DNA of 64,000 bases. It comes from Candidatus Gastranaerophilales bacterium (lineage in GTDB: Bacteria > Cyanobacteriota > Vampirovibrionia > Gastranaerophilales > Gastranaerophilaceae). Shown in pieces: positions 13,369 to 53,723 of the stretch. How positions within the stretch are numbered: position 1 is the first letter of the stretch; each line of letters starts with the position of its first letter. The position numbers and the translations under genes are program-made. Location: contig CALUYE010000002.1 of the NCBI GenBank assembly GCA_944324945.1, forward strand, positions 1 through 64,000. The letters are read 5' to 3'. Under the pieces are notes generated by a model, which was not told where the DNA came from, ran no database searches, and saw only the letters and a list, made by a program, of their open reading frames with translations.

Positions 13369-14340
13369 ATGAATATTTTAATAACAGGGGCTGCGGGGTT
13401 TATTGGGTCTAATCTTGCCGACAGATTGCTTTTTGAAGGTAATACCGTCTATGCGCTTGATAATTTTTGTGATTATTATCCCGTTTATTTAAAAAGACAA
13501 AATGTTGAAAACAATTTAAATAATCCTAACTATAAGCTTTTTGAAGGGGATGTTTTAGATAATTCTTTTTTGGATTATGTTTTTCAAAATCCGATAGATT
13601 GCGTTATTCATCTTGCAGGACAGGGAGGCGTGAGACCTTCAATTGAAAAGCCGATTAATTATATTGAAGAAAATGTAATTGCAAGCGTTAATATTTTAGA
13701 TAAAATGAAAAAATATAACGTAAAAAAAATTGTTTTTGCGTCATCCTCTTCAGTTTACGGAAATTGCAATGAAGAAAAATTCAGTGAGGATTTTAAAATT
13801 TCAAAACCGGTCTCGCCTTATGCGGCAACAAAAATTTCAAGCGAATTATTTTTATACACTTATTCATATTTATACAACATTAATGCCATAGCTTTAAGAT
13901 TTTTTACTGTTTTTGGCCCGCGTCAAAGGCCTGATTTAGCGATTAGGAAATTTATTGATTTAATTGAAGACAATAAACCGATTCCTTTATATGGCGACGG
14001 CACAACATGTCGTGATTATACATATATTGATGATATTATTGATGGAATTAAAAGAGCGATTAATTATAATATTGATGGTTTTGAAGTTTTTAATCTGGGG
14101 GCGGGAAGTCCTGTTTCTTTAAGACAAATGGTTCAAACAATTGAAAAAGTTTTGAATAAAAAAGCAAAAATCGAATACCTGCCTATGCAAGAAGGTGATG
14201 TTTTAAGAACTTCCTGTGATATTTCAAAAGCGAGGGATTTGTTGGGTTACAATCCTAAAATAAATTTTGAAGACGGTATTAAAAAATATATAAAATGGAA
14301 AAATGAAAATAACTTAACTAAAAAAGCCCTTCAATCCTGA
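13369..14340 (+). CDS. NAD-dependent nucleotide-sugar epimerase (UDP-glucuronate 4-epimerase-like)
   Basis: 323 residues, extended short-chain dehydrogenase fold. ILITGAAGFIGSNLADRL is the NAD-binding GxxGxxG; ASSSSVYGN and SPYAATKIS carry the catalytic Ser, Tyr and Lys; FFTVFGPRQRPDLAIRKF and GDGTTCRDYTYIDD are the sugar-nucleotide site signatures. The N-terminal DNFCDYYPVYLKRQNVE resembles the UDP-glucuronate epimerase branch more than GalE. It would supply sugar nucleotides for envelope glycans such as those made by the operon at 54-59 kb. Ribosome site GCGAGG. The stop codon lies within a terminator hairpin. Confidence 0.88.
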   Translation: MNILITGAAGFIGSNLADRLLFEGNTVYALDNFCDYYPVYLKRQNVENNLNNPNYKLFEGDVLDNSFLDYVFQNPIDCVIHLAGQGGVRPSIEKPINYIEENVIASVNILDKMKKYNVKKIVFASSSSVYGNCNEEKFSEDFKISKPVSPYAATKISSELFLYTYSYLYNINAIALRFFTVFGPRQRPDLAIRKFIDLIEDNKPIPLYGDGTTCRDYTYIDDIIDGIKRAINYNIDGFEVFNLGAGSPVSLRQMVQTIEKVLNKKAKIEYLPMQEGDVLRTSCDISKARDLLGYNPKINFEDGIKKYIKWKNENNLTKKALQS

Positions 14341-14349
14341 AGGGCTTTT
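14322..14349. terminator. Bidirectional intrinsic terminator
   Basis: AAAAGCCCTTCA (14322-14333), loop ATCC, TGAAGGGCTTTT (14338-14349): a perfect 12-bp stem that ends in A/T tracts on both strands. It overlaps the epimerase stop and sits just past the stop of the convergent stomatin gene, serving both. Confidence 0.9.
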
Positions 14350-14353
14350 AAGT

Positions 14354-15325
14354 CTATTCTTTTGTTAACATTTGTTTTATGCCGTCAATTGAAGATAAAA
14401 TCCCTGTTGCTTCATAAGGCATATAAACAACTTTGTTGTTTTGACCTCTGCTTATATCCTGCAAGGATTCAAGATATTTCATAGCGATTAAATATTTATC
14501 GGGCTGTCCTTTGTTTTCAAATGCTTCCGTTATTCTTCTGATCGCTTCTTTTTCCGCATCTGCTTCAATTAATCTTGCTTTTGCAGCACCTTCCGCTTTT
14601 AGAATTTCCGCTTGTTTTGTACCTTCCGCTTTGTTGATAGCTGCTTCTTTTTCGCCTTCTGCTTTTAAGATTGCCGATTTTTTCAAGCCTTCGGCTTCTA
14701 AAATTGCTGCCCTTCTGTCGCGTTCTGCTTTCATTTGTTTTTCCATAGCGCTTTGAATATCAACGGGAGGTATAATGTCTTGAAGTTCAACCCTGTTTAC
14801 TTTAACACCCCATTTGTTTGTTGCTTCGTCTAAAATTGAGCGCAGTTCAACATTTATTTTATCTCTTGAAACCAAGGTTTCATCTAAATCAAGCTGTCCG
14901 ACAAGGTTTCTTAAAGTTGTTTGAGTAAGCTTTTCAATTGCTTCAGGTAAGTTTTGGATTTCATAAACCGCTGATTTAGGATCAACAATTTGAAAATATA
15001 ATAAAGCATTAATTGAAATTGAAACATTGTCTTTTGTGATGACGGTTTGGCGGGGAAAATCATAGACTGATTCTCTTAAGTCTATTTTTGTTCTTTCTTT
15101 GATGTATGAATAAGTATTACCGTCGATTCCTTTTTGTGTAATTTTCCAGGCAACGCCTCTTGGGGCTTCTATAATCGGGAAGATAAAATTAAGCCCCGAT
15201 TCAAGAGTTCTTGAATATTTACCTAAGTTTTCAATTATTACAACTTCTGCCTGTTGTACTATTACAACGCCTTTTGCAACAAAAATAATTGCTAAAACTA
15301 TAAGTAAAATTAAAAATATTTCCAT
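14354..15325 (-). CDS. SPFH/stomatin-family membrane protein (QmcA-like)
   Basis: 323 residues. One N-terminal membrane segment (FLILLIVLAIIFVAKGVVIV), then the SPFH domain (VVIIENLGKYSRTLESGLNF to VNRVELQDIIPPVDIQSAM), then a long coiled coil of repeated 'AILKAEGEKEAAINKAEG' units and a C-terminal helix. Such proteins form cage-like oligomers on membrane microdomains and often control membrane proteases. It lies 28 bases after a NfeD-like gene and is transcribed with it, the classic NfeD-stomatin pair. Confidence 0.9.
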   Translation of the reverse strand: MEIFLILLIVLAIIFVAKGVVIVQQAEVVIIENLGKYSRTLESGLNFIFPIIEAPRGVAWKITQKGIDGNTYSYIKERTKIDLRESVYDFPRQTVITKDNVSISINALLYFQIVDPKSAVYEIQNLPEAIEKLTQTTLRNLVGQLDLDETLVSRDKINVELRSILDEATNKWGVKVNRVELQDIIPPVDIQSAMEKQMKAERDRRAAILEAEGLKKSAILKAEGEKEAAINKAEGTKQAEILKAEGAAKARLIEADAEKEAIRRITEAFENKGQPDKYLIAMKYLESLQDISRGQNNKVVYMPYEATGILSSIDGIKQMLTKE

Positions 15326-15353
15326 TTTTCCTCCTCAATAAGCTGCGCAAAAA

Positions 15354-15773
15354 TTAATTCTCGTGTTTTTTAACTTTCATAATAAGGCTGTCATATCCGA
15401 TTATTTCAGCATTTTGTCCTGCTTCAATAACTTCATCGCTCCTTGCTTGCCATCTTTCATCATAAATTGATATAACACCGTTTTCGCTGTCAATTTTTTC
15501 GATTACTTTTGCAATTTTACCTATGTATTTAGCTTCCATGCCTGTTTTTTCTTTATTTTCTTTTCTCATTTTAATAAAAAACGGCCTTATTAAATACAAA
15601 AGCGCAATTGATAAAAGCGCAAAAGTGATTATTAATACAGGGATATTTTTTATATAAACCGATAAAATTGCGCAAACAAAACAAGAAAGCGCAAAGTTAA
15701 TAAAAAATAATGCGGGAGTAAACATCTCCAAAATTAAGAATATTATGCCTATTCCAAGAATTATTTCCCACAT
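15354..15773 (-). CDS. NfeD-like membrane protein
   Basis: 139 residues, short NfeD form without the N-terminal protease. Three or four membrane segments fill residues 1-75 (IILGIGIIFLILEMFTPAL, VCAILSVYIKNIPVLIITFALLSIALLYLI), followed by a small OB-fold (EAKYIGKIAKVIEKIDSENGVISIYDERWQARSDEVIEAGQNAEIIGYD). The OB-fold is the mark of NfeD/YbbJ. It starts the two-gene operon with the stomatin gene and is its expected partner. Confidence 0.88.
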   Translation of the reverse strand: MWEIILGIGIIFLILEMFTPALFFINFALSCFVCAILSVYIKNIPVLIITFALLSIALLYLIRPFFIKMRKENKEKTGMEAKYIGKIAKVIEKIDSENGVISIYDERWQARSDEVIEAGQNAEIIGYDSLIMKVKKHEN

Positions 15774-15824
15774 AGTATTTTGAGTTTAGCAAATTTTTTA
15801 AAATTTTGCAATAAACAAATTGTA

Positions 15825-16367
15825 TTATTCTATAATGTGTTCATCTATTTCTTTTGCAATTTCCTGTGTTGCAAGAAGGCAAAGCCCGTTTATAATTTGG
15901 GTTCCTATATCTTCGGAATTTCCGTATTCGTTGTATGTTGTATAGCTTGTCGGCATAATTCCTTCAAATTCCATCTTGCTTTGTATTATGCCATCAGGCG
16001 TGTAGCTGTATATAATTTCCTCATCATTGTCTGAATTTTCATCTATATACAGTTTGTATTCGTTATTGTATTTTTTTAAAGAAAGTTCAAAATTTCCGTC
16101 GTTATTTGCATCATATTCAAAACTTTTAAGTTTTCCTTCAGAAAGCATGGTTTCATAATCAACTCCCGTAAAGAACTTTCGATATTCTTCCAAGTCAACG
16201 GCATCTATTACAACGCTTGAATTTTCTCCTGTCGGATATTTTAATTCGTTTGTAAATATACTTTGAATTTCTTTTTTGAAAGGATCAGCGTATCTGCTTT
16301 TTGAAAATGCTTCTTTAAGATAACTGTTGTTAACTAATAAACTCGTGCTTTTTACTTCTTCGCTCAT
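15825..16367 (-). CDS. Hypothetical protein with a Ca-binding-like D-x-N-x-D-G loop
   Basis: 180 residues, acidic, no signal peptide. The middle reads YDANNDGNFELSLKKYNNEYKL then YIDENSDNDEEIIYSYTPDG, two loops like those of calcium-binding or RHS-type beta repeats. The C-terminus (GTQIINGLCLLATQEIAKEIDE) is helical. I do not recognise the family. It is preceded by a GGGGA ribosome site and stands between mutS2 and the NfeD operon on the same strand. Confidence 0.6.
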   Translation of the reverse strand: MSEEVKSTSLLVNNSYLKEAFSKSRYADPFKKEIQSIFTNELKYPTGENSSVVIDAVDLEEYRKFFTGVDYETMLSEGKLKSFEYDANNDGNFELSLKKYNNEYKLYIDENSDNDEEIIYSYTPDGIIQSKMEFEGIMPTSYTTYNEYGNSEDIGTQIINGLCLLATQEIAKEIDEHIIE

Positions 16368-16438
16368 ATTTTCCCCGCTTTATATATTTTATGTATATAT
16401 AAAGTATATTTAGCAAAAAAAATTGCGCGTATTTTTAA

Positions 16439-18778
16439 CTAAATTAAATCAACAATAACAATACCTTCTCTACCTTCGTCTCCGTATCTGAATTTTGAGA
16501 CGTATGGAGATGTTTTTAAATATTCATTTACCGCCGATTTTAGTGCTCCTGTACCATACCCATGGATTACGGTTATTTGATTTAGCCCCCTTAAGGATGC
16601 TTTATCAAGCTTTTCATCTAAATATTCTATAGCTTCAATCACTCTCATGCCTCTTAAATCAAGAGTTGATAGCAATCCATCGGTATTATCAAAGGATACC
16701 TGTACTTTTTTTAAATGCGGAGCTATTTTTTTATCGGTAGGCGCTATATCATCAAGTTTTACTTTTGATTTAATGTTTCCTATTCTGACTATAACATTTC
16801 CTTTTTTATCAGGCATTGAATCAAGAATAACAACCTGATTTAATTTTTTAATCAAGACATTTTGCCCGATTTTAAGAGAATTTATATCAATTTTTTTATA
16901 TTTTTCGCTTAATTCATCATCATGGATGCTAAATTCTTCTCTTATGTTACTTTCAATTTTATTTAGTCTGTTATATGAGCGCATGGCAACTTTAAGAGAC
17001 TTTTCTTTTCTTATTTCGTCTACGATTTCTTTAATTTCGCCTCGCGCTTCATCGAGTTTATTTTGGAATTTTTTTCTGAAACTTTCAAGAGATTTTTTCT
17101 TGTTTTTCTTAATATCGTTTAATTTTTCTTCAAGCTCTTCTTTTGATTTTTTAATTTCGCTTAAATTTTTACTTGCTTCTTCTTCTTTTTCAACAAGGTT
17201 TTGATTGGTTTGTTCGATTTTTGAAAAAATATTTGAAGCGTTATTATTATTTTCTTTTAAAATTTCTCTTGCGCGATTTATAATTTCAGACCTGATTCCA
17301 AGTTCAGATGAAATATCTATAGCATTTGACGTTCCTGACATTCCGATTATAAGATTGTATTTAGGTTTTAAGGTATTTATATCAAAAAGCACGGTTGCAT
17401 TTTCAAAGTAAGGGTTTTCGTATTTCAGGCTTTTTAATTGCCCAAGATGCGTTGTAATAATGCATGCTGTTTGTTTTTTTGAAATATATTCCAATATCGC
17501 GCGCGATATAGCTGCTCCTTCTTCAGGGTCTGTTCCTGATCCCAATTCATCAAACAATACAAGCGAATTGGAATCTATTTTATTTAAAATTTCAGATATA
17601 TTTTTAATATGGGCGCCGTATGTAGAAAAGCCCTGTTCTAAGCTTTGTTCTGTTGAAATATCGCAATAGATATTTTGATAAGGGTATATTTTAGCTCCCA
17701 AGCAAGGAACAAAAAGCCCTGCTTTTGCCATTAATACAATAACACCTGCTGTTTTTAGGGCGACAGTTTTACCTCCCGTGTTTGAGCCTGTAATTAAAAG
17801 ACAGTTGTAGTTTTTTCCTAAAATAAAATCGTTTCTTATAACTTCATCCTTAACTTCTAAAAGCAAAGGATGCGCCATAGATTGAATATCTATAATTTTC
17901 TCATCCGTAATTTCAGGCTCTGTTGCACACAGATGGATTGCATATCTTGCTTTAGCAAAAATAAAATCGAGCTTAACTAAAAGATGTTGATTTTCAATAA
18001 GTTCTTTTTTAATTTCTTTAAATTTTTGGCATAATTCGTCCAGAATTCGCTCTATTTCGGCTTTTATTTCAATTTCAATCTGTTTTAGTTTGTTTGTTTG
18101 AGGGACAAGACTAGAAGGTTCTATAAAATAAGTTAAGTTTGTCGATGAAATATCATGGATAATCCCCGCTACTTTATTTTTGTAGCTTGCCTTAACCTGA
18201 AAAACGGGTCTTGAATCTCTCGTTGAAACAACGGTGTCTTGAAGATTTTGAACAAATGAAGGATTTTGTAAAAGTAAATTTATAGAGTTTTTTAAATTTT
18301 CTTTATTGTCTTTATATGAATTTCTTAATGATTTTAATTTATCCGATGCATTATCTTTTAAATTATATTCATTATCAAAGATATTAAAAATATAGTCTTC
18401 AAATTCTTTATTTATATAGAAATTTGCCGTAATTTCAGCTAAATTTGATTTATTGTTTTTTTGAATAAAATTTTTCGTCTCACGTGCGTATTTTAAATTT
18501 TTTGCAAGTTCGACAATTTCTTTTGATGTTATTTTATTTGTTTTAAAAAGCTCATTAATATCTAAAATATCACCAAAAGGTAAATAACAGGATGTATCAT
18601 CGATTATTTTTTTAGCTTCGCTTGTAAGATTTAATTCATATTCGATTTGTGATTTATTGTTATAAAATTCAACATTCAGGCATTTTTTCTTTCCTAAAGA
18701 CGAATTTGCATATTTTGATAAATTGATTAATACTTTATCAAATTCCAGTGCTAATTGGTGATTATCTAAATTATTCAT
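16439..18778 (-). CDS. mutS2: MutS2 ATPase with C-terminal Smr domain
   Basis: 779 residues, full length. The clamp/lever region is followed by the MutS ATPase: LLITGSNTGGKTVALKTAG near residue 330 (Walker A), LVLFDELGSGTDPEEGAA (Walker B and signature), ACIITTHLGQLK. A long coiled coil of Lys/Glu (residues 520-620) follows, then the KOW-like IGQNVLIKKLNQVVILDS and the Smr nuclease domain LDLRGMRVIEAIEYLDEKLD with ITVIHGYGTGALKSAV. MutS2 limits recombination and rescues collided ribosomes in other bacteria. It stands 22 bases after an XRE regulator on the same strand. Confidence 0.95.
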   Translation of the reverse strand: MNNLDNHQLALEFDKVLINLSKYANSSLGKKKCLNVEFYNNKSQIEYELNLTSEAKKIIDDTSCYLPFGDILDINELFKTNKITSKEIVELAKNLKYARETKNFIQKNNKSNLAEITANFYINKEFEDYIFNIFDNEYNLKDNASDKLKSLRNSYKDNKENLKNSINLLLQNPSFVQNLQDTVVSTRDSRPVFQVKASYKNKVAGIIHDISSTNLTYFIEPSSLVPQTNKLKQIEIEIKAEIERILDELCQKFKEIKKELIENQHLLVKLDFIFAKARYAIHLCATEPEITDEKIIDIQSMAHPLLLEVKDEVIRNDFILGKNYNCLLITGSNTGGKTVALKTAGVIVLMAKAGLFVPCLGAKIYPYQNIYCDISTEQSLEQGFSTYGAHIKNISEILNKIDSNSLVLFDELGSGTDPEEGAAISRAILEYISKKQTACIITTHLGQLKSLKYENPYFENATVLFDINTLKPKYNLIIGMSGTSNAIDISSELGIRSEIINRAREILKENNNNASNIFSKIEQTNQNLVEKEEEASKNLSEIKKSKEELEEKLNDIKKNKKKSLESFRKKFQNKLDEARGEIKEIVDEIRKEKSLKVAMRSYNRLNKIESNIREEFSIHDDELSEKYKKIDINSLKIGQNVLIKKLNQVVILDSMPDKKGNVIVRIGNIKSKVKLDDIAPTDKKIAPHLKKVQVSFDNTDGLLSTLDLRGMRVIEAIEYLDEKLDKASLRGLNQITVIHGYGTGALKSAVNEYLKTSPYVSKFRYGDEGREGIVIVDLI

Positions 18779-42428: not shown

Positions 42429-42508
<80 letters not shown>

Positions 42509-43869: not shown

Positions 43870-44319
43870 ATGAGTGAACCAATAGAAATAAAACTTGATA
43901 ATAAAGAGGTTGAATCAAGATTACTTGATTTGGCAAAACGAAGCGAAAACCTGCGGCCGTTAATGAAAAATATCGCAGGTATTTTCGCATATTCTACCGA
44001 AGAAAATTTTAAAGAAGAGAGCAGATCTGATAAGTGGATAGATTTAGCCGAATCAACGAAAAAACAGAGAACGAAGACAGGACATTACCCCGGACAAATT
44101 TTACAAGTTTCAGGGCAACTGGCATCATCAATAAGTACATATTATGACAATGATTCCGCTGTTATTGGTTCAAATCTTGATTATGCCGCAATTCATCAAC
44201 TTGGAGGTCAAGCCGGTAAAAATCAATCTGTAACCATACCTGCAAGACCATATTTACAACTTAATAATGAAGACTTTGAAGAAATCCTTAGTATGACCGA
44301 AAATTTTTTAGGGGAATAG
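43870..44319 (+). CDS. Phage virion morphogenesis protein (Mu gpG / tail completion type)
   Basis: 149 residues, normal for the family. SRSDKWIDLAESTKKQRTKTGHYPGQILQVSGQLASSISTYYDNDSAVIGSNLDYAAIHQLGG carries the family signature: W-x-x-L, the Gly-x-x-L-x-x-S-G-x-L turn, and the A-x-I-H-Q-x-G end, with IPARPYL near the C-terminus. In Mu-like phages it helps complete heads or tails. Here it has no structural partners, so it is a survivor of a decayed prophage or a gene reused by a satellite. Confidence 0.8.
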   Translation: MSEPIEIKLDNKEVESRLLDLAKRSENLRPLMKNIAGIFAYSTEENFKEESRSDKWIDLAESTKKQRTKTGHYPGQILQVSGQLASSISTYYDNDSAVIGSNLDYAAIHQLGGQAGKNQSVTIPARPYLQLNNEDFEEILSMTENFLGE

Positions 44320-44358: not shown

Positions 44359-44901
44359 ATGACAACTGTAGAACCTATTAGAAACAAAACCGATATTAAA
44401 AAGGTTGAAAAAGTTTTAAAAAGCCAAAGTCAAAGAAATTTATTGCTTTTTGTTCTTGGAACAAATTGTGGATTAAGAATTTCTGATTTACTTTCACTTG
44501 ATGTTGGAGATGTAAGGAATAAAACTCACATTCAAATAGTAGAGAAGAAAACAGGAAAATTTAAAAAGTTTCCAATTAACGAGAGATTAAAACCTATGAT
44601 TGAAGAATTTGTTAAAGGCAGAAGAAATACTGAACCTTTATTTTTATCGCATTGGAAACATCGTCTTGATAGAGTAACTGCATATTACTTGATTCGTGAT
44701 GCGTGTGAAAAAGCAGGACTTCAAGAAAGAATCGGAACGCATTCGATGCGAAAAACATTTGGATATCATCATTACCAACAATTTAAAGATGTAGTAATCC
44801 TGCAAAAGATTTTTAATCATTCCAGTCCTCAAATAACATTGAGATATATTGGGATTGAGCAAGACCAAATTGATTATAGTTACAGTAACTTTATTATATA
44901 G
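44359..44901 (+). CDS. Compact catalytic-only tyrosine recombinase (FimB/RecV-like size)
   Basis: 180 residues, lacking the N-terminal core-binding domain. Catalytic residues: Arg in GTNCGLRISDLLSL, Lys in KKTGKFKKFPI, H-x-x-R in IGTHSMRKTFGYHHY, His in FNHSSPQITLRYIG with the Tyr nucleophile. AGGAGAGGA precedes the ATG. About 70% identical by eye, over the same length, to the protein at 53181. Recombinases of this size (FimB, FimE, C. difficile RecV) invert promoter segments; an inverted-repeat pair starts 45 bases after this gene. It could also be the element's integrase, as there is no other. Confidence 0.88.
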   Translation: MTTVEPIRNKTDIKKVEKVLKSQSQRNLLLFVLGTNCGLRISDLLSLDVGDVRNKTHIQIVEKKTGKFKKFPINERLKPMIEEFVKGRRNTEPLFLSHWKHRLDRVTAYYLIRDACEKAGLQERIGTHSMRKTFGYHHYQQFKDVVILQKIFNHSSPQITLRYIGIEQDQIDYSYSNFII

Positions 44902-46094: not shown

Positions 46095-46195
46095 GTACTA
46101 AATCAAACTGTTAATTTTTGTAAATAATTTGATTTTTAGGCAAAAAATAATATTGATTGGTTTTATATTGGTGGATTACAATAATAAAGAATAAT

Positions 46196-46414
46196 ATGCG
46201 TATAAATAACATACAAAATACAAGAAATATTAATGTAGTATCTTTTAATGGAGTGTTTACAACAAATATTAAAGATATTGACAAGAAGCATGGTTCTGTT
46301 GTTGTTACAGACTATGTAGATAGTTTTCAAAAAAGTGTAGATGATATAACCGATACTTACGAAAAAGAAAGAAAAAAGCTGAAAACAAATTTTTTGGCAA
46401 AAAAAGAGCGTTAA
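46196..46414 (+). CDS. N-terminal piece of the AAA+ protein, in a shifted frame
   Basis: 72 residues from the ATG at 46196. Begins MRINNIQNTRNINVVSFNGV, the short N-terminal signature common in this lineage, and ends FLAKKER at a TAA. At 46399-46405 seven A's form A-AAA-AAA in this frame; a -1 slip there continues as KKRALRKLDDEYRGRMDAW and joins the ATPase frame without loss. So this is either the first part of one 403-residue protein made by frameshifting, a broken gene, or a base-calling error in a homopolymer. Confidence 0.6.
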   Translation: MRINNIQNTRNINVVSFNGVFTTNIKDIDKKHGSVVVTDYVDSFQKSVDDITDTYEKERKKLKTNFLAKKER

Positions 46415-46443
46415 GAAAATTAGACGATGAATATAGGGGTAGA

Positions 46444-47406
46444 ATGGATGCTTGGAGGCAAGATCAAGCTATTTTTCAAAAAGCGAAAGAAGCGCATTTG
46501 AAAGACATCGAACAACTTTTAGAAACCGCAAAAAGACATAACGCTACACTTGATGAATTAATAAAATTAAAATCTGATTTTGAAGCAACCCAAAAAACAA
46601 TTGATTTAGCAAAGAAGCAACAAGCCGCAAATAAAAATAGTGGTTTTAGTAGATTAGCAGGTTATGAGCCAGAAAAAGCAACTTTGCAAAATATTTTAAT
46701 AAATAAAATTTTTGAAGAGCAATCAGGTGTGCCAACAAAACTTCCAAATGCAATTTTATTTTTTGGACCAACGGGAACCGGAAAAACTACATTTGCAATT
46801 GCATTAGCACAAGAAATAAAAGAAGGTGCAAAGCCAGTTACGATTGACACTTCTGAAGAACCAGATGATGTTATGGATGAAATAGAAGTTGAAACCAGAA
46901 GAGCTAGAAAAAAATACAAACAAACAGGCGAAAGAACAATTATTCTTTTAGATGAAGTAGAGGCAATTGCAGGCAGAGATTCAGAAGTATTAGAAGAATT
47001 AAAAGCAAAATTAACAAAAGCATTTGATGATGACAAATGCATATATATAATGACATCAAATAATCCTACGGAAATATCACCAGATATTTTAACTCCTGAC
47101 AGAACAAAATATATTGTTAGTGTAGATCCTCCTGATTTTGAAAATGCTCTTGCAGTTGTAAAGTTCTATTTTTCTGGACTTAAACAACAAGGTTTGGATT
47201 ACAATAGAATTGCTCGTGCGATAACCAACCGTTCAAATGGCAAATTTAGTAATTCTGGTATAGAAGAATTGTATAAACAATGTTGTACTAGCAAAATATG
47301 TACAACTGATGGTATAATAAATTTAATAAATAAAACATCACCCAATATTACTCAAAGTGAATTATATTCATACGAAAATGATAAAAAAGTATTTTTAGGA
47401 AGATAA
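46444..47406 (+). CDS. AAA+ ATPase, active member of an AAA pair
   Basis: 320 residues from the ATG at 46444 (AGGGG just upstream gives an independent start), or 403 if read through from 46196. A coiled-coil N-terminus (residues 1-70) leads to the AAA+ core: AILFFGPTGTGKTTFAIAL (Walker A), RTIILLDEVEAIAG (Walker B), YIMTSNNPTEI (sensor 1), DRTKYIVSVDPPDFENALAV (Arg finger/sensor region) and a C-terminal lid (ITNRSNGKFSNSGIEELYKQC). It looks like FtsH/ClpX-group remodelling ATPases without a protease. TAATG overlaps the next gene's start. Confidence 0.82.
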   Translation: MDAWRQDQAIFQKAKEAHLKDIEQLLETAKRHNATLDELIKLKSDFEATQKTIDLAKKQQAANKNSGFSRLAGYEPEKATLQNILINKIFEEQSGVPTKLPNAILFFGPTGTGKTTFAIALAQEIKEGAKPVTIDTSEEPDDVMDEIEVETRRARKKYKQTGERTIILLDEVEAIAGRDSEVLEELKAKLTKAFDDDKCIYIMTSNNPTEISPDILTPDRTKYIVSVDPPDFENALAVVKFYFSGLKQQGLDYNRIARAITNRSNGKFSNSGIEELYKQCCTSKICTTDGIINLINKTSPNITQSELYSYENDKKVFLGR

Positions 47407-47846
47407 TGCAAATGAATAATACTGTTAATAATTCAAATATTTACACAAAAACCAACGCTATGCTCGTTGGTGCTACTGGCGTTGCTGGTGCTTTGGGTGG
47501 CATTGCAAAAAGTCATTTTTTAGACAAGCCGGATGTCCAAAAAGGTTTAGAACAGGAATTTCATAAATACACTAGAGCTGTTGCTCAAAATGAAATTGAT
47601 ATAAAAGACACTTTTGAGCGTACAGTAAAAAATCAAGAACTTAAAGATAATTTTAACAAATTATGTGATTACTGGTATAATACTGGCTTAAAAAAAGTAA
47701 ATAAAAAAAATATAATAATTGGTTCATTGATTGGTATTGCGGTCGGAATAGCAGGAGTAGTTGCAAAAAATTTATTAAAGAAAAATAAAGGCACTACAAA
47801 TGAAACTGGCACCAATAAAATACAATACTATAACGCACAAAAATAG
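47406..47846 (+). CDS. Membrane protein of the AAA+ module
   Basis: 146 residues with two hydrophobic segments, near 17-34 (NAMLVGATGVAGALGGIA) and 101-120 (NIIIGSLIGIAVGIAGVVA), and a helical loop between them (QEFHKYTRAVAQNEIDIKDTFERTVKNQELKDNF). Starts within the ATPase stop codon (TAATG); a second ATG lies two codons on. Its end overlaps the next gene by 47 bases in another frame. No family known. The setting suggests it ties the AAA+ proteins to the membrane. Confidence 0.65.
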   Translation: MQMNNTVNNSNIYTKTNAMLVGATGVAGALGGIAKSHFLDKPDVQKGLEQEFHKYTRAVAQNEIDIKDTFERTVKNQELKDNFNKLCDYWYNTGLKKVNKKNIIIGSLIGIAVGIAGVVAKNLLKKNKGTTNETGTNKIQYYNAQK

Positions 47847-48843
47847 TAATTATAATAGAATAAACAATACTGCATTCAAAACAACAGCACAAAATATATC
47901 TTTTGGAAGCTCAGAAGAGACTCTTTCGAAAATTAATTCAGATATTAACGCAATCTCTAATTCTTATAAATTTAAAACAAAAATGAGCTCATTAAGAAGA
48001 AAATCACTCAATGATAGAGTATCTTATGATGATTTTATAGTTGCATCCATGTTTGCTTACAATGAACATGCAGTTAATTTTCCAATAAAGGAAGATTTTT
48101 TTGAATATAAAATAAAAGCAAGGTTTATAGAAGCTGTTAAAAAATATTTAAATCTTGAAATACAAAAAGAATTAAATGACTTCTTAAAAGCGAATTATTC
48201 TTGGGGATTTTTTACAGATAAAAAATATGGTGGCTCTGAATCTTTTGCAATAGCAATTCCTTGTGTATTACCATATATTAAAGGATATGAAGCCGAAATT
48301 AGTGTATTAAAATTAAAAGATCTTGAAAAAAAAGAGGCGGGTTTAAGAAAAGATATTGATAAACAAGATAAAGTAATAACTACAAAAGAACAATTAAGCA
48401 ATGAATATTTAAAGCCAGTACAAGCTGTCCAAAAAGATTCCACGCTTAACTTGCCAAATTCTATTATGCTAGAATGCAAAGATAAAGCTATAGCCAATGA
48501 AATTATGCAGTGGACTTTATTAAATACCTCAGCAAGACCTATTGCTATAGGCACTAGTTCGTATGATTCAAACTCTGCAGTAAGAAATAAACTAAAATCT
48601 GCACTAGAAAATGCACGCGAAACTTATGAAAATTATCGAACACCAACATTGATATATTGTGAAAATTTTGACAAGTTGTTGCAAAATTCAAATCCTAAAT
48701 CTGAACTAGCTGCAATAAAAGCATTATTATCTAATACTTACGAAAAATATCATGCTACTATTATTTTTACTACAGCCAATTCGAATACTATAGAAAACGT
48801 GTTAAAGCAACCCCACAGAATGAAGCAAATAAAAGTTGAATAA
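47800..48843 (+). CDS. AAA-like partner without Walker motifs
   Basis: 347 residues. The N-terminus holds AQNISFGSSEE, the lineage signature. Residues 215-345 line up with the neighbouring ATPase: LNLPNSIMLECKDKAIANEI takes the place of LPNAILFFGPTGTGKTTFAI but has no P-loop; ARETYENYRTPTLIYCENFDKLL matches RARKKYKQTGERTIILLDEV with E-N in place of D-E; TIIFTTANSNTIENVL matches sensor 1. So it seems to be a catalytically dead AAA domain that would form a mixed ring with the ATPase. The alignment is by eye. Confidence 0.6.
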   Translation: MKLAPIKYNTITHKNSNYNRINNTAFKTTAQNISFGSSEETLSKINSDINAISNSYKFKTKMSSLRRKSLNDRVSYDDFIVASMFAYNEHAVNFPIKEDFFEYKIKARFIEAVKKYLNLEIQKELNDFLKANYSWGFFTDKKYGGSESFAIAIPCVLPYIKGYEAEISVLKLKDLEKKEAGLRKDIDKQDKVITTKEQLSNEYLKPVQAVQKDSTLNLPNSIMLECKDKAIANEIMQWTLLNTSARPIAIGTSSYDSNSAVRNKLKSALENARETYENYRTPTLIYCENFDKLLQNSNPKSELAAIKALLSNTYEKYHATIIFTTANSNTIENVLKQPHRMKQIKVE

Positions 48844-48844
48844 A

Positions 48845-49174
48845 TTACTTTGATTGCTGTTCTTTTTTTGCTTCTTTATTTTTTTGATATATTTTTGCAA
48901 AGGTAACTACCCCCATTGTAGCCAAAGCACTAACAGTTGCAGACATTAAAGATATTCCAATAGTTTTTGGTATGAAATTTTTTGTTGCTTTTGTAATATT
49001 CATTTTTGTTAAATGCATACCAGCTACAGCTAACCCTATTATAGCTGCAGCAATTGAACCACTTTCCATATCATTTTCTGAAAATTTTAAATCTACTTCT
49101 TTAGCTTTAAAGGTTAGATGTTTATGATTTTGATTTTGATAATTTTTTATATTAGTAATATTATTTATTTTCAT
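48845..49174 (-). CDS. Small membrane protein, lineage-type N-terminus
   Basis: 109 residues. Begins MKINNITNIKNYQNQNHKHL then TFKAKEVDL, the N-terminal signature. Two hydrophobic segments (GSIAAAIIGLAVAGMHL and IGISLMSATVSALATMGVVTFAKIY) and a Lys-rich tail. AGGAGG precedes the ATG. Third gene of a leftward unit (nuclease, 178-residue protein, this one); its stop is one base from that of the rightward AAA unit. Confidence 0.65.
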   Translation of the reverse strand: MKINNITNIKNYQNQNHKHLTFKAKEVDLKFSENDMESGSIAAAIIGLAVAGMHLTKMNITKATKNFIPKTIGISLMSATVSALATMGVVTFAKIYQKNKEAKKEQQSK

Positions 49175-49180
49175 AATTGT

Positions 49181-49717
49181 TTACCTCCTATAAAAAGTTT
49201 CTTTATCTAATTTAAATCTTTTTAAGTCTTCCTGCAATATTTCTGGTTTTGTTTGTTGAATTGCATCAAGTAAACTTTGTGTGTTTATTCTACCATTATT
49301 TTGCATTTTTGTTAATTCGACAATATTTTTAATTTGACCATTGCTATACCTTGCTTGCTGGACTTGACATTGTTTTTCAAAAGCATCTATTACTTTATTA
49401 AAATCAACCTCAATTGTTTTAGTATTTATTGTTGAACCAGAAGCAATTATTTGAGGTTTTGGTGCAAAAAATTTATTTTTCTTCTTTTTATCTTTCTTTA
49501 CATCTTTATTCTCAAAAACACTATCCATCTGCTCAAAAGCTTTATTAGCGGCTTTTTCTATTTTCCAAGCAATATAGCTTCTGTCCAAATTAACAGTAAT
49601 TACACATATAATTACCGTATATACCAGTAAACTAATATTTAATTGCAATCCGATTTTTTGAGTAGTTTCTGCAAGTTTCGTATATAACTCTTTTATTTTT
49701 ACATTATTTATTTTCAT
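49181..49717 (-). CDS. Hypothetical protein with one membrane segment
   Basis: 178 residues. A single membrane helix (residues 24-43, QLNISLLVYTVIICVITVNL) is followed by a Lys-rich linker (VKKDKKKKNKFFAPKP) and a helical soluble domain (DFNKVIDAFEKQCQVQQARYSNGQIKNIVELTKMQ). GAGGT precedes the ATG. It lies 12 bases after the nuclease and six before the next gene. No family recognised. Confidence 0.6.
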   Translation of the reverse strand: MKINNVKIKELYTKLAETTQKIGLQLNISLLVYTVIICVITVNLDRSYIAWKIEKAANKAFEQMDSVFENKDVKKDKKKKNKFFAPKPQIIASGSTINTKTIEVDFNKVIDAFEKQCQVQQARYSNGQIKNIVELTKMQNNGRINTQSLLDAIQQTKPEILQEDLKRFKLDKETFYRR

Positions 49718-49729
49718 AACTTGACCTCA

Positions 49730-50782
49730 TTATTTTGAATTAATACACAATATTTCATTAATTTTTTCTTTTATCTGTTCACAAAAACTAAATATATCAT
49801 CAACAGAATTTATTGCGATTTTTTCTTCTTTTTTATCTTTTACGAATGCTATATATTTTTGAGAGCGGTTAAAATATAATCTACATATAGTTTTTCTTAT
49901 ATTATCGTCTAATAAGACATTAAAATAACTTGCATTATCTCTATATGTTATTCTTTTTGTATCAACAACACCATTTAAAAGACTTTTTACTATTGCGTAG
50001 CCTTCTAATTCTTCAAGGGTCGTTATAATTTCGTTTTTTGTTTCTTTAGTTTCTTGTTTGGAGCTTAAATTAAAATCGAGGGATGTTTTCATTACTTTTG
50101 ACATAAAGAGATTAAATGCTTCTATGGTAGTATTTTTATGTTTTTCAATAATTCTATCGGTAATGCGACCTTCACAAACTCCAGATTTATTTATTAAATA
50201 CCTTATAAAATCATCGCTGGGCTGTCTGTATTCATTTTCAATAACTTCTTCAAATTGCTTGATATACTTTAAATCACCTGCGTTTGAAAATGCTTTTTCT
50301 ATATCAAAATTTTCTTTGCAAAATTCAGAGAGGGTTTCTATCTGATTTTCTTTGAAATCTAATAAGTTAAAGGTAAAAAACGGTTCATTATCTAATTTGC
50401 CAGCAGATTCAATATCAGAAAAGAATTTATATACAATGCCATTTGATAAAATTATAAACTTTGCGTCAGTAACGCTAAAATATCTTATAAGTTGAGTTGC
50501 GTGTTTTTTAATATCTAAAGATTTATTATCAACTTTCTTGCACTCAATAAGTATTATCGGTTTATTATCTTTTAATATTGCGTAGTCAACCTTTTCACCT
50601 TTTTTAACTCCGACATCTGCAATATATTCAGGTACAACTTCTATAGGGTTAAAAACATCATATCCAAGAGCATTAATAAAAGGCATAATTAATGCGTTTT
50701 TTGTTGCTTCTTCTGTTTGCAAGCTGTCTTTCATAGCTGAACAGCGTTCTTTTAGTTGGTTAATCTTTTCAATAAATTCCAT
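49730..50782 (-). CDS. Stand-alone HsdR-N-type PD-(D/E)xK nuclease
   Basis: 350 residues. Residues 15-125 match the N-terminal nuclease domain of type I restriction enzymes: TEEATKNALIMPFINALGYDVFNPIEVVPEYIADVGVKKGEKVDYAILKDNKPIILIECKKV, with the catalytic Asp in KVDYAIL, the E-x-K in LIECKK, and the downstream helix KKHATQLIRYFSV. There is no helicase part; the C-terminal half is a separate domain (YAIVKSLLNGVVDTKRITYRDNASYF) of unknown role. Such stand-alone proteins occur in phages and islands. A defence or element-stability role is inference from context. Confidence 0.8.
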   Translation of the reverse strand: MEFIEKINQLKERCSAMKDSLQTEEATKNALIMPFINALGYDVFNPIEVVPEYIADVGVKKGEKVDYAILKDNKPIILIECKKVDNKSLDIKKHATQLIRYFSVTDAKFIILSNGIVYKFFSDIESAGKLDNEPFFTFNLLDFKENQIETLSEFCKENFDIEKAFSNAGDLKYIKQFEEVIENEYRQPSDDFIRYLINKSGVCEGRITDRIIEKHKNTTIEAFNLFMSKVMKTSLDFNLSSKQETKETKNEIITTLEELEGYAIVKSLLNGVVDTKRITYRDNASYFNVLLDDNIRKTICRLYFNRSQKYIAFVKDKKEEKIAINSVDDIFSFCEQIKEKINEILCINSK

Positions 50783-53180: not shown

Positions 53181-53723
53181 ATGACTTGTGTAGAACCAAT
53201 AAGAAAAATTTCGCAAATTAGAAAAATCGAAAAACTGTTAAATCTTCAAAGCAAAAGAAACCTTATTTTATTTACGATAGGTATAAACTGCGGATTAAGG
53301 ATTTCAGACATTTTATCGCTTAATGTCGGTGATGTTAAAAATAAGAATTTTATTGAAATTAAAGAGAAAAAAACGGGAAAATTTAAAAAATTTCCAATCA
53401 ATTCAAAATTAAAACCCATGCTTGATGATTTTGTAAAAAACAGAAAAAACAATGAACCTTTGTTTTTATCAATTTTTAACAATAGGCTTGAGCGCATTGG
53501 TGCATATTATATAATTACCGATGTTTGCAAAAAAGCAGGTCTTGAAGAAAAAATCGGAACTCATACAATGAGAAAAACGTTTGGCTATCATCATTATAAA
53601 AAATTCAAAGATATAGCCATGCTGCAAAAAATTTTTAACCATTCCACCCCTCAAATAACCCTGAGATACATAGGAATAGAACAAGAGGAAATTTATCAAA
53701 GCTATTCCAATTTTATTCTTTGA
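53181..53723 (+). CDS. Second compact catalytic-only tyrosine recombinase
   Basis: 180 residues, about 70% identical by eye to the protein at 44359, with the same catalytic set: Arg in GINCGLRISDILSL, Lys in KKTGKFKKFPI, H-x-x-R in IGTHTMRKTFGYHHY, His/Tyr in FNHSTPQITLRYIG. AAGGAGG precedes the ATG. It stands 1.4 kb outside the tRNA-fMet element. An inverted-repeat pair begins directly at its stop codon and the glycan operon follows, so inversion of the 92-base spacer is its probable job, in the way of FimB-type switches. Confidence 0.88.
   Translation: MTCVEPIRKISQIRKIEKLLNLQSKRNLILFTIGINCGLRISDILSLNVGDVKNKNFIEIKEKKTGKFKKFPINSKLKPMLDDFVKNRKNNEPLFLSIFNNRLERIGAYYIITDVCKKAGLEEKIGTHTMRKTFGYHHYKKFKDIAMLQKIFNHSTPQITLRYIGIEQEEIYQSYSNFIL

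Follow-up and report, generated by a model that had tools for sequence, protein, structure and literature searches.

A finger-only AAA-like protein as a candidate partner subunit in proposed composite AAA assemblies of Gastranaerophilaceae

In the 64,000-nucleotide stretch of DNA analysed here (the window), genes for an AAA ATPase (AAA1), a small membrane protein (MEM) and a 347-residue AAA-like protein that has lost its nucleotide pocket (PSA) are encoded on the same strand (46444–47406, 47406–47846 and 47800–48843), and their ends overlap, as an earlier note made from the sequence had stated. The earlier note had proposed an active and an inactive AAA protein with membrane parts on a mobile element. 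That description was correct, the element being a transferable cassette, and to it we add that PSA keeps an arginine finger, R340, which the earlier note did not mention. The new point is the proposed division of a catalytic site between sister subunits. The features of the locus are:

46122–49411, transferable cassette, 97.9% identical to locus L043 over 3292 columns (blastn of L043 against the window)
46196–46414, plus strand, N-terminal AAA1 fragment that includes the tag MRINNI...SFNG; the remainder of the gene is in a different frame
46372–46377, plus strand, frameshift site, an A-run with one base fewer than its counterpart in the unbroken L043 copy
46444–47406, plus strand, AAA1, a classic AAA domain with Walker B DE and sensor 1 Asn
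46765–46788, P-loop of AAA1 (position computed from residue numbers)
47101–47103, arginine finger R220 of AAA1 (position computed from residue numbers)
47406–47846, plus strand, MEM, small membrane protein with a strong transmembrane (TM) segment at residues 102–120
47800–48843, plus strand, PSA, finger-only pseudo-AAA protein of 347 aa without P-loop, catalytic Glu or lid
48817–48819, plus strand, arginine finger R340 of PSA
48845–49174, minus strand, TM100, small membrane protein bearing the tag, final gene of the convergent operon B, inside the 97.9% identical cassette
49181–49717, minus strand, AAA2 stump, a C-terminal part preceded by a foreign N-terminal piece that has a TM segment
49730–50782, phage-family endonuclease (phrog_4225, E 2.7e-112), outside the cassette

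L043 comes from another genus of Gastranaerophilaceae, a family of gut-dwelling bacteria related to cyanobacteria, and blastn of L043 against the window found no similarity beyond 46122 and 49411. A cassette of about 98% identity is also present in L039 (Candidatus Galligastranaerophilus intestinavium, same family), the one locus returned when genome contigs were scanned with the window PSA alone. In its full form the cassette comprises a pair of convergent operons, and some copies encode an EF-hand protein. In L043, AAA1 is a single 403-aa frame and operon B is complete, encoding TM100, a second ATPase termed AAA2 (732 aa; PF00004, E 2e-16) and protein X (450 aa), which has EF-hand repeats (Pfam, E 6e-14).

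The window copy is a decayed remnant that, as assembled, probably has no function. Its AAA gene is not intact, being split into 46196–46414 and 46444–47406 by the frameshift at 46372–46377, which could have arisen by genuine mutation or be an error of the MAG. A programmed frameshift at the A7 run just before 46408 was rejected, as the gene in the 98% identical copy reads through in one open frame and the difference lies at another A-run. The stretch shared with L043 stops inside AAA2; X is absent, and the phage-family endonuclease comes next. The operon of a nuclease and membrane proteins that was said to face the AAA genes is of mixed make-up: 48845–49174 does belong to the cassette, but 49181–49717 is the AAA2 stump (41.5 bits against the AAA1 profile at residues 101–176), in which 49181–49411 matches the end of the 732-aa ATPase of L043. 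The nuclease at 49730–50782 was rejected as a partner of the AAA pair because it lies outside the shared cassette. MEM, described earlier as a two-helix protein, has its strong hydrophobic segment at residues 102–120, but the second (16–34) is weak.

Two similar 180-aa tyrosine recombinases flank the region (44359–44901 and 53181–53723); together with a tRNA-Met (42429–42505) and a tail-completion gene (43870–44319) they may mark an integrated element in the window. The same genome carries a further locus on contig C1, L040, with AAA1, MEM, PSA, a TM100-like gene, AAA2 and X; here X forms one reading frame with a Mu-type transposase piece that precedes it (14339–17068, minus strand; weak rve and Mu-transpos_C matches).

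AAA1, PSA and AAA2 are homologous AAA proteins. The window AAA1 matches PF00004 (E 8e-18), and an AAA1-domain profile built from 22 loci found p97 at 4.6e-47 and Vps4/CdvC at 1.5e-37; the best 60 of its 363 matches in the PDB were p97/VCP, Cdc48, Vps4/CdvC, Afg2 or Rix7. By sequence, AAA1 is therefore grouped with the classic AAA proteins of the p97/Vps4 clade. PSA matched no Pfam family, but the AAA1 profile found it at E 2e-14, which identifies it as a degenerate AAA domain. The alignment with the AAA core of its neighbour that had been made by eye was reproduced by BLASTP (25% identity over 116 aa, E 4e-4). At the place of the P-loop PSA reads CKDKAIAN and the Walker B DE has become EN, so that both losses noted earlier were borne out. 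The protein stops right after the fifth core strand and has no lid.

The earlier note had made the fold of the partner a test of its proposal. In an AlphaFold2 model of moderate confidence (11-row alignment; pLDDT averaging 51.5 over the full chain and mostly ∼50–83 in the core), PSA residues 187–347 superimpose on p97 D1 residues 204–370 with Z 16.7 and an rmsd of 3.0 over 155 residues, and the five strands follow the AAA order. PSA is thus predicted to have an AAA fold. The fold comparison gave no LAP1 among the 50 matches listed, and a PSA profile searched against PDB sequences gave eight matches with E no higher than 1, the best at 0.092; the names LAP1 and Torsin did not occur among them.

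To see how pockets and fingers are distributed, we collected 259 AAA-like cores from 105 fetched loci and the window, and kept 244 from 101 loci, counting GKN as a pocket. Those dropped were the window (the same element as L043), L142, L143, the 903-aa ATPase of L103 and 10 truncated or unaligned cores; L142, L143 and the L103 ATPase were judged by eye to be household AAA proteins. The kept cores comprised 118 with a finger only, 84 with a pocket only, 35 with both and seven with neither. The finger arginine was therefore present in 118 of the 125 pocketless subunits and missing from 84 of the 119 pocket-bearing ones.

Within the pocketless set, whose mean pairwise identity is 24%, the finger arginine is the most conserved of 148 columns (95%); in the pocket set the same column ranks 72 of 147. 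The set was gathered with a profile that itself contains the arginine, which is carried by 106 of the 109 high-scoring members. In a HMMER alignment the column falls on the FGR arginine of p97 D1, which we take to be an arginine finger of p97. For 80 of the 84 pocket-only proteins no arginine lies within two residues of the column; the remaining four do have one there, a point against the reading favoured below. At least 32 of the 125 pocketless subunits are lidless, since they end within 30 residues of the finger, as against 0 of 119 pocket subunits.

In a FastTree phylogeny of all cores, calculated with the P-loop and finger columns removed, the pocketless subunits formed one large clade and a small second group of four proteins nested among pocket subunits. 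Finger-only subunits therefore arose at least twice, if this topology is right. The four proteins come from L062, L114, L119 and L121, five-AAA operons that each encode one finger-only, one neither-type, one both-type and two pocket-only subunits. With three pockets to two fingers, these arrays also count against the reading favoured below.

Conservation of the arginine could also have another cause. Dead AAA paralogues can serve as scaffolds, and with this precedent PSA could be an inhibitory or scaffolding decoy that caps AAA1, its arginine being kept for folding or some other contact. R340 is not the sole conserved site: lysine at K307 (48718–48720) is conserved nearly as well, in 118 of 125 pocketless subunits, and occurs in 46 of 119 pocket subunits. 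However, a decoy would explain neither why AAA1 is mostly fingerless where PSA-type proteins are its sole partners nor why AAA2 lacks a finger, and we consider it improbable. K307 may be another residue, besides R340, that works across the subunit interface.

The finger of AAA1 itself varied with the presence of AAA2. Choosing AAA1 by profile score alone, we could count 62 loci; 25 of 87 AAA1 loci, 20 lacking the finger and five with it, were dropped because they meet a contig end and the presence of AAA2 could not be judged. Where AAA2 was present, AAA1 kept its finger in 26 of 27 loci; where AAA2 was absent, the finger was gone in 31 of 35. The two features thus agreed in 57 of 62 loci (26 + 31), with 4 + 1 discordant. 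Of the discordant loci, L050 and L122 lie inside the AAA2 group on the tree, and L053 and L103, with a finger kept in the absence of AAA2, are true exceptions. AAA2 itself has no finger. Every AAA2 locus (27/27) has exactly one finger-only subunit, and the loci without AAA2 have one (14 loci), two (14), three (3) or none (4).

Counting by subunit composition gave a similar picture. Among the 26 loci with at least two pocket subunits and a finger-only partner, exactly one pocket subunit had a finger in 24. The exceptions were L067, in which the AAA1 gene is split and the second piece carries the arginine (the split also keeps L067 out of the 62-locus table), and L111, a true exception with two AAA1-like ATPases and no finger in either. 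Where there was one pocket subunit and a finger-only partner, the pocket subunit lacked the finger in 48 of 53 loci. The five that kept it were L050, L053, L065, L103 and L108; of these, L050 has a 98-aa AAA-like stump, and in L065 and L108 there is an AAA2 whose P-loop reads GKN. Solo pocket subunits with no finger-only partner nearby, a further point against the reading favoured below, were seen in L041 (this genome), L115 and L127.

The weight of this association depends on how often it arose. On the AAA1 tree the finger changed about six times and AAA2 presence about five times, and an independent-pairs test of finger against AAA2 was not significant (three supported pairs). Fisher's exact test gave p 4e-12, a value overstated by the relatedness of the loci; given the few tree changes and the non-significant pairs test, it is not independent evidence. 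The association rests on about five to six evolutionary changes. With so few changes (six for the finger, five for AAA2), the pattern might reflect ancestry, the finger losses of AAA1 being unrelated and their match to AAA2 a coincidence. Against this, the finger-only subunits of the five-gene arrays arose separately from the others, and losing an arginine that hydrolysis normally requires must be compensated somehow. We regard this reading as quite improbable.

We favour, at a probability of roughly 70%, a hetero-oligomeric, membrane-associated AAA machine with composite ATPase sites, in which the finger of PSA acts in trans. AAA1 would bind ATP and PSA would donate the arginine finger, in the manner of LAP1 to Torsin. 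In the fuller version the finger of AAA1 would also serve AAA2; because AAA2 has a pocket but no finger, the order of subunits would be finger-only, AAA1, AAA2, with each finger serving the next pocket. From these sequence patterns we infer complex formation, this order and an ATP dependence on the partner. With the catalytic site divided in this way, PSA turns from an inactive into a probable activating partner.

The genes stay together, as the earlier note had expected: a finger-only partner lies in the AAA1 strand run in 55 of the 62 loci with a fully visible neighbourhood. By hydropathy calls, the strand run of AAA1 includes a TM protein no more than three genes away in 48 of 62 loci, and 44 of 118 finger-only proteins have a predicted TM segment themselves, C-terminal in 25 of the 44. 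These predicted segments and nearby TM proteins suggest that the proposed machine contacts the membrane. Its most likely work, a guess prompted by the recurrence of membrane subunits and by the place of the ATPase in the p97/Vps4 clade, would be to use ATP to remodel or extract proteins at the cell membrane.

The arrangement resembles that of Torsin and its activators LAP1 and LULL1 at the eukaryotic nuclear envelope and ER, where a fingerless pocket AAA+ protein is paired with a pocketless activator that has the finger. According to PMC4358337, Torsin lacks the arginine finger, and LAP1 is membrane-anchored and has no P-loop, no C-terminal domain and a strict arginine. The same split is found here in 31 of 35 loci without AAA2 and in 118 of 125 pocketless subunits; the window AAA1 departs from it, having kept its own finger. 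Unlike Torsin, AAA1 groups with p97 and Vps4 by sequence, and unlike Torsin–LAP1 the present proteins are bacterial, operon-linked and in many loci accompanied by a second ATPase. LAP1, according to the same source, has its TM segment N-terminal to the AAA-like domain, whereas here it is C-terminal in 25 of the 44 finger-only proteins that have one. We therefore liken the arrangement to Torsin–LAP1 and do not claim membership of that family.

Clamp loaders (RFC, γ complex) also have an ordered chain of finger-only, both-type and pocket-only subunits. They differ in that AAA1 aligns best with p97/Vps4 structures and in that membrane proteins occur in many of the present loci. A clamp-loader origin was rejected on sequence, the best 60 of 363 PDB matches including no RFC or DnaX type; a match to a phage clamp-loader profile does exist (phrog_168, E 2e-14). 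Pex1/Pex6 is a type II AAA+ complex with two AAA domains per protein, and it is not known to include a stand-alone finger-only subunit. What it would share with the present proteins is the pairing of AAA paralogues for membrane-linked work: PMC4490564 describes two AAA paralogues in one ring that transports proteins across a membrane. The vWA–MoxR–FtsH ternary conflict systems, as described in PMC7159879, are bacterial multi-gene systems combining a classic AAA domain with an inactive one; they differ in carrying both domains on one fused protein, alongside MoxR and vWA proteins, neither of which was recognized among the core genes here.

The AAA pair is part of a much larger family, of which no published description was found among the papers listed in literature searches. 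In overlapping draws, all within the phylum, the PSA profile was found in 101 of 383 Gastranaerophilaceae genomes and 21 of 41 genera (E up to 1e-10), in 59 of 192 genomes of an order-wide draw that included four further families, and in 51 of 386 genomes and 17 of 142 genera of a phylum-wide draw, where every listed match came from the same order. If the proposed reading is true, comparing the simpler with the fuller versions among some hundred diverse loci would reveal how a composite AAA site evolves, the operon-encoded proteins would suit a test of whether a trans arginine finger sets subunit order, and genes of nameless families in common gut bacteria would gain a hint at function.

The main rival, which we hold to be possible but doubtful, is that the hetero-AAA proteins form an anti-phage or anti-element defence carried on prophages, sensing infection and acting at the membrane. 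It ranks first among the rivals on account of the movement and decay of the cassette and of the Mu-like or other phage genes that adjoin the AAA2 form in several loci. The earlier note had suggested defence, competition or element maintenance, and any of these may be the role. The spread is patchy (101/383 family genomes), a 98% identical cassette occurs in two genera, copies decay, and Mu-type phage genes lie beside L040 and L043, phage head or tail genes beside L046 and others and restriction–modification genes beside some AAA2 loci. A scan of 123 neighbouring proteins from 23 of the 27 AAA2 loci (excluding the near-duplicates L076, L077, L090 and L092) gave methyltransferases, type III restriction genes and phage head and tail genes. 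However, of the 135 neighbours listed for loci that lack AAA2, the 115 scanned (those of L050, L115, L122, L126 and L127 being excluded) were mostly household-like, and the core genes include no recognizable effector. PADLOC 2.0 matched no core protein to a described defence family over its length; its weak, generic matches were to AAA domains only, the best being IetA with one array ATPase (E 1.8e-10).

The phage genes also allow that the proteins are a morphogenesis or replication accessory of Mu-like phages, since Mu transposase-type genes adjoin L043 and are fused to X in L040, and head and tail genes adjoin several AAA2 loci. Against this, the 25 commonest PHROG matches among neighbours of loci without AAA2 include no phage structural family, tblastn of AAA1 and PSA found no match in 50,697 phage records, and the window PSA has no relative on viral contigs; such a role seems very improbable. 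Viral-contig scans with the PSA of L075 and with X likewise found no relatives, and a viral origin was rejected on the phage records and these scans; the AAA1 profile gave partial matches at 45 viral-contig loci, mostly at 20–35% identity.

X-type proteins were found in 20 of 27 AAA2 loci versus 2 of 35 without AAA2, and about half of them have EF-hand-like loops. A more far-reaching and tentative version of the composite machine would comprise obligate, ordered hetero-AAA motors of up to three subunit classes that arose independently of Torsin–LAP1, with membrane subunits coupled to an extracellular Ca2+-binding EF-hand protein, and that move or remodel proteins carrying an N-terminal tag specific to this lineage.

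The tag in question, approximately M-[KRQ]-[IV]-x-x-I ... [ST]-F-x-G, stands at the start of many proteins of the AAA system and of many neighbours, in the window (46196–46260, 47800–47920 and 48845–49174) and in most loci. An FxG-type motif was present within residues 9–60 in 129 of 247 core proteins, versus 21 of 247 in an internal stretch; for other proteins the counts were 111 and 41 of 687. The tag is possibly a targeting signal of this lineage. Tagged neighbours include a 279-aa protein of L065 (10761–11600, minus strand) with an HEFLH motif (HExxH, zincin-like) and no Pfam family, relatives of which adjoin 13 loci, five-gene arrays and others, and an ankyrin-repeat protein of L053 (14114–15634; Ank_2, E 3e-54) whose family, found next to eight loci, recurs where AAA2 is absent.
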